64,000 nt of DNA from Thiomicrorhabdus indica (GTDB lineage: Bacteria; Pseudomonadota; Gammaproteobacteria; Thiomicrospirales; Thiomicrospiraceae): contig NZ_CP033040.1 of the NCBI RefSeq assembly GCF_004293625.1, positions 1,984,001 to 2,048,000 on the forward strand, in the 5' to 3' direction. Each line of letters opens with the position of its first letter. Position 1 is the stretch's first letter. The notes beneath the pieces are model-generated. The model was not told the DNA's origin and did not search any database. It was given only the letters and a program-made list of their open reading frames with translations. This document shows positions 49,777-50,055 of this stretch, one piece after another. Position numbers and translations under genes: made by a program.

Positions 49777-49827
49777 ATGGCACAAGCGCAATCCAAAACC
49801 ACCCACACTCCAATGATGCATTGGTAA
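49777..49827 (+). pseudogene. mutS: 5' stub of mutS, cut after 16 codons
   Basis: The frame from ATG at 49777 reads [16 protein letters not shown] and then TAA. HTPMM is the hallmark N terminus of MutS, where it is normally followed by QQYL and a HPD segment. No MutS-like continuation appears in any forward frame after the stop. The site, divergent from cinA-recA-recX-alaS, is where intact mutS lies in many gammaproteobacteria. The break therefore marks the edge of the inserted dnd island, between about 49820 and 49827. Mismatch repair may be lost unless another copy or the rest of the gene lies at the far end. Confidence 0.75.
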
Positions 49828-50055
49828 CAGACAGCTTTATTTACAAGGAATTTAGAATAATTTTAGGTTAAAGTTACGCTAACCGTTACGCCTATTCATA
49901 CTGGATAGAATTTGCTAGATAACACACTCAAGCATCGGGCTAGCAAACACTTAGAGCTTGATTATGTAACCTATTTTTTCAAAGAATCTCACACCCTCTC
50001 AGACTCAAAAAATCACCCTACTTTCTTTTATAAAAAATCAGATCCGTGAGGGCTT
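49828..50055. other. left end of the dnd island, noncoding
   Basis: AT-rich 228 bases between the mutS stub and the first island gene. Direct repeats GTTACGC occur at 49873-49879 and 49885-49891, 12 bases apart. Such repeats may be recombinase or transposase sites at an element end, but no terminal inverted repeat can be tested without the other end. Confidence 0.5.

Follow-up and report, generated by a model that had tools for sequence, protein, structure and literature searches.

A putative dnd/dpt-bearing island in the start of mutS in Thiomicrorhabdus indica

Mobile elements inserted in the HTPMMQQ motif of mutS were described by Chu et al. (2017) in hundreds of beta- and gammaproteobacteria (PMC5296598). 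In V. splendidus 12B01 mutS receives a new start and promoter from the element, whose excision causes a 2-bp deletion and makes the strain a hypermutator; after excision the gene is in frame in E. coli 536, P. putida F1 and B. multivorans CF2, and the element of E. coli 536 excises in the laboratory (PMC5296598). The island studied here is like those elements in having a homologous integrase beside mutS and an insertion in HTPMMQQ, with the host start stranded at one end and an in-frame mutS start supplied by the island at the other (PMC5296598). Unlike them, as far as the main text of that paper describes them, it carries dnd/dpt genes as cargo; that main text contains none of the words dnd, phosphorothio-, restriction and defense (PMC5296598). 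Insertion of this type of element into mutS was already known, and the island adds a member with a dnd/dpt cargo, the locus showing a mutS-targeting element with a putative phosphorothioation defence system aboard.

The window is the whole stretch of 64,000 nucleotides that was analysed (C1:1984001-2048000, in a genome that consists of a single contig of 2.83 Mb), and positions beyond its end are given as those of the extended window. SXT/R391 elements, which are conjugative, sit in the 5' end of prfC and capture this end of the gene, providing a replacement start and promoter. The capture of a 5' end is alike in our island; the target gene differs, and SXT/R391 elements are conjugative. Islands and prophages targeting dusA also enter a host gene at its 5' end in an integrase-specific manner, again with a different target (PMC4482086). 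The dnd islands of E. coli share with ours the presence of dndB-E and dptFGH on an integrase-bearing island, but the nine described are all associated with tRNA genes (9/9), whereas this one lies in mutS (PMC4373003). In S. pyogenes a prophage or island at mutS-mutL halts mutL transcription upon integration; the location at mismatch repair genes is common to both cases, but here the mutS frame is kept (PMC5296598). The mutL islands had been offered as the analogy in an earlier note on this DNA, and the mutS element family is the better precedent (PMC5296598). Among the literature matches listed, mostly open-access, none described a dnd island inside mutS, which is weak evidence of absence, and PMC5296598 was the sole title on the subject of insertions within this gene.

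Our main reading, to which we give a probability of about 93%, is that a dnd/dpt-bearing island was inserted in the start of mutS by a tyrosine integrase, and that mutS has been kept whole through a start carried by the island. The features on which it is based are collected in Table 1.

Table 1. Features of the island and of its flanks (window positions unless otherwise indicated)
Feature	Position	Strand	Evidence or remarks
cinA, host gene divergent from original mutS start	48976-49458	-	ORF of 160 aa
Orphaned host mutS start, 16 codons and stop	49777-49827	+	ATG 49777, TAA 49825-49827
Left attachment core, CACACTCCAATGATGCA	49804-49820	+	17 bp, 16/17 identical to right core
Two GTTACGCY repeats 12 bp apart	49873-49892	+	Putative integrase arm sites
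Small protein, 90 aa, 3' end of dnd operon	50056-50328	-	No PADLOC match
dndE	50335-50706	-	PADLOC DndE, E 2.4e-13
dndD	50688-52646	-	PADLOC DndD, 648 bits
dndC	52643-54211	-	PADLOC DndC, 695 bits
dndB	54208-55284	-	PADLOC DndB, 539 bits
DGQHR-domain protein, DndB/DpdB-like	55352-56641	-	TIGR03187 DGQHR, 92.7 bits (cut-off 58.85); PADLOC DpdB, 35 bits
303-aa protein	56623-57534	-	Weak PADLOC matches only
dptH/dndH	57516-62570	-	PADLOC DndH, 1844 bits
dptG/dndG	62518-63825	-	PADLOC DndG, 364 bits
dptF/dndF, 3' end	63815-64000	-	530-codon frame to extended window 65407; PADLOC DndF, 432 bits for L003:1-1407
Tyrosine integrase	L003:16024-17346	-	440 aa; Phage_integrase and Arm-DNA-bind_3
Four GTTACGCC repeats, 12-bp spacing, in the integrase-mutS gap	Extended window 81438-81481		
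Right attachment core, CATACTCCAATGATGCA	Extended window 81614-81630		Genome C1:2065614-2065630

The two ends of the island and the state of mutS

At the left end, the 16-codon mutS N terminus cut by a stop and divergent from cinA, which the earlier note had pointed out, is real. Its start lies 319 bp from the start of the presumed cinA (49458), a name taken over from the earlier note. A MutS_I match was found in all of the 24 same-genus relatives searched for mutS, and the locus was returned for 22. In 13 of these 22 loci mutS and cinA are immediate neighbours in divergent orientation and HTPMM is preceded by a short, variable leader, supporting that the stub stands where mutS belongs. In the other nine no cinA match was detected upstream of mutS (within about 1.5 kb; 1.0 kb in L022), and the upstream neighbours differ among them. 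DNA similarity between the left flank and the relatives is confined to the surroundings of the HTPMMQ codons. The interval from cinA to the host mutS start contains a 26-bp perfect palindrome (AAAACTTTACCGGCCGGTAAAGTTTT, 49662-49687), terminator-like in the scan and perhaps an operator.

The remainder of mutS lies at genome position C1:2065575 (extended window 81575), 31.8 kb from the stub, and both it and an integrase were present at the far end when the sequence beyond position 64000 was read, as the earlier note had proposed. This mutS is complete, with 870 aa, and has before HTPMMQQ a start and leader, MKNTEKSSTKKTQ, unlike those of the stub. It matches TIGR01070 with 1144 bits (cut-off 641.7), and the genome has no other MutS_I match, in such a way that the search for a full-length mutS returned this copy and no other locus. 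As mutL also has an open frame of 675 codons (582 bits, cut-off 180), mismatch repair looks genetically complete for mutS and mutL.

With an intact copy at the far end of the island, inactivation of mutS was rejected, and with it the earlier claim that the insertion abolishes mismatch repair. The stop after 16 codons of the stub could suggest that mutS was destroyed and the strain became a permanent mutator, but we hold this to be very improbable, having in mind the 870-aa gene with its island-supplied start and the free variation, in length and sequence, of the leader before HTPMM among relatives, so that a swap of leader should not harm MutS. A stranded mutS start need not mean a mutator, and the locus corrects what is a natural misreading.

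The island spans 31,810 bp, from window position 49804 to extended window position 81614, with a GC content of 38.2%, lower than in its flanks (41.3% over 20 kb on the left, 40.4% over 12 kb on the right). Both cores span the HTPMM codons, which places the insertion within the HTPMMQQ motif. The degenerate 17-mer CAYACTCCAATGATGCA has exactly two copies in the 2.83-Mb genome, both at the island ends, and its reversed control has none, so that the coincidence of stub and core is more than chance. No third copy with up to three mismatches was found in the whole island, and one further match at this threshold lies in the window outside it, at 33757. Taken alone, 16 codons are little evidence, and the stub could be an unrelated short frame with the island boundary elsewhere; this is scarcely credible, as the stub adjoins cinA and holds the HTPMM motif in frame, the core is unique to the two island ends, and similar repeats are found at both. 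The first claim of the earlier note, a dnd island inserted in the mutS start, is maintained.

For the integrase-driven insertion that we favour, the following course can be proposed. A tyrosine integrase would have placed the island into the HTPMMQQ codons at the mutS start by recombining the chromosomal site with a similar core of the island, in such a way that the host start would be severed and left as a stub, and the body of mutS would be fused to a start codon and leader borne by the island, MutS staying complete. If the reaction ran backwards, the host start would again be joined to mutS in frame. Both cores lie in the same mutS register, and the flanks joined in silico give an in-frame mutS; in the predicted circle junction the island leader runs into the stop of the stub. 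Therefore, mutS is predicted to remain in frame after clean excision, which should not create a mutator.

A different outcome would be expected if the island were a mutation-rate switch, its excision altering or abolishing mutS function. This is unlikely: the element belongs to the same family and occupies the same motif as that of V. splendidus 12B01, where excision gives hypermutators (PMC5296598), but the register of the cores predicts a joined gene in frame, although its expression could still differ. The predicted attB carries no frameshift of the 12B01 type, and excision differs in this from that of 12B01 (PMC5296598); by prediction the island fits the in-frame group of E. coli 536, P. 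putida F1 and B. multivorans CF2 (PMC5296598). The reversible switch suggested earlier survives in part, since rejoining of mutS by excision is possible, but not as an off/on device; with the rejoined gene predicted in frame, excision would amount to a change of promoter and leader.

The start and leader of the present mutS lie in island DNA, from which MutS would be expressed, and the island may bear a working promoter for the gene. A consensus promoter scan before the island-borne start showed no outstanding promoter, with one plus-strand match, and three sites on both strands vs 1.8 expected, close to chance; before the host mutS start the plus strand gave no match. When the island-borne leader was examined for selection on its peptide, 14 distinct rows from a single leader group showed both silent and replacing changes, and HTPMMQQ one replacement, a pattern from which we claim no such selection. 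With the start, and presumably the promoter, of a repair gene exchanged, the locus offers a case, open to direct test, in which a mobile element takes over a housekeeping gene.

The integrase, its repeats and its relatives

The integrase gene is divergent from mutS, with 228 bp between the two starts. Residues R284, K309, H378, R381, H404 and Y413 are common to the integrase and a 47%-identical relative, and we take them to be the catalytic positions of a tyrosine integrase. The enzyme is presumably active. No excisionase was recognised among those island ORFs, a part of the total, that were put through family searches.

In the gap between integrase and mutS, none of 200 single-base shuffles gave repeats as good as the four right-hand ones. 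The two left repeats resemble them and are not significant alone (p 0.2). On the plus strand, GTTACG occurs nine times in the 47 kb examined, six of them in the two repeat clusters, and its complement ten times, none in the clusters. Repeats of period 12 or 15 lie between integrase and mutS in 19 of 27 other loci (at most 1/100 single-base shuffles), many of the 27 being close kin and hence not independent; in the remaining eight no clear repeats were found. These data suggest that the 12-bp-spaced repeats are integrase arm-binding sites. The only mutS of the genome would be expressed from an island whose putative integrase sites separate the integrase and mutS starts, and on this basis the level of mismatch repair might change when the integrase binds, or when the dnd island is gained or lost, a reading that we regard as quite improbable; if true, phage defence would be coupled to mutation rate.

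A pattern scan of genome contigs yielded 28 relatives of the integrase, all of those found being at most 49% identical to it. In 27 of the 28 mutS is adjacent and divergent, with the leader joined at HTPMM; for the other (L054) only 302 bp upstream of the integrase match are available, too short to tell. A draw of 369 genomes from the class produced 11 integrase matches at 1e-60 or better, our own included, nine of them adjoined by mutS and two in loci that end too soon to tell. The distance between integrase and mutS in these class matches is about 250-350 bp, and about 600 bp in L076 (genome G242), where the open stretch between the two may be another gene.

Within the genus the search covered 32 genomes, of which 24 have a completeness of 90% or more and a contamination of 5% or less. 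An intact mutS-type integrase was found in T. indica and in none of the 31 others, the locus adding a divergent lineage of this integrase type to the genus. One same-genus genome (G024:C1:878897-879247; L030 / L083) has, next to mutS, the remnant of a mutS-type integrase interrupted by two stops, which we regard as the trace of an earlier element. All further matches in the genus are to distant integrases (25-28%), none of them beside mutS by coordinates. Viral contigs gave one distant integrase (27%), whose contig holds no match to mutS.

A tree of 40 integrases placed 35, among them ours and the E. coli 536 one, in a single group (100/100) separate from the five others; two of the 35 (L054 and L074) lie on contigs too short to show a mutS neighbour. 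The tree was midpoint-rooted for drawing only; long branches, that of our integrase among them, make its exact place unsure, and the deepest branching within the group is uncertain as well. The E. coli 536 integrase, used for the clade comparison instead of that of 12B01, is 41% identical to ours over 258 aligned positions (E 7e-55), and was compared over its annotated 249 aa only. By these sequence comparisons, the integrase is a member of a mutS-targeting clade.

The mutS-side integrase of E. coli 536 (L079:2977-3726, minus strand) is annotated with a length that ends before the catalytic domain, and excision has been reported in this strain despite this annotation (PMC5296598). Two mutS-type integrases (L054 and L035) are on contigs labelled Bacteroidota; that of L035 is almost identical in the tree to a Nitrosomonas one, so its label may be a binning error.

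The dnd/dpt cargo and other island contents

As listed in Table 1, dndB-E and dptFGH are without exception minus-strand genes pointing to the stub, in such a way that the operon ends beside it; the earlier note had it beginning there, 228 bases after the stub. PADLOC matches were obtained for the seven components of dndBCDE with dptFGH (7/7), the dptF frame being open across the window end (extended window 63815-65407). By its gene content, the cargo would be a Dnd phosphorothioation-restriction system. In tblastn searches (E 1e-5) the Dnd/dpt proteins of the island gave no match in 29 related loci, which extend up to 10 kb from the integrase, many of them less.

Inside the island there is a second tyrosine recombinase, XerC-like (L003:6544-7470, minus strand; extended window 70544-71470). 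Near it are a DUF927 gene with a distant match to SCCmec Cch1 (46.6 bits, cut-off 700) and a 255-aa protein with a HIHL stretch and no Pfam or NCBIfam match, which, we assume, resembles a HUH replication protein; the three are possibly a nested element. An IS3-family insertion (L003:1725-2893, plus strand) lies between the dptF start and the DUF927 gene and may sit in the promoter region of the dpt-dnd genes; a repeat search did not resolve its ends.

The presence of the XerC-like recombinase, the IS3 and the DUF927 gene would also be expected if two or more elements were stacked or nested in mutS instead of one island. We consider this possible but rather unlikely, as the island has no third core (up to three mismatches) and shows no sign of elements stacked at one site. 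The single-island reading is preferred.

A HipA-like gene (44 bits, cut-off 401) and a small HTH partner (L003:7652-9210, minus strand) also lie within the island, near a radC-like gene, a relative of which is found in three of the 29 related loci (L041, L047 and L053).
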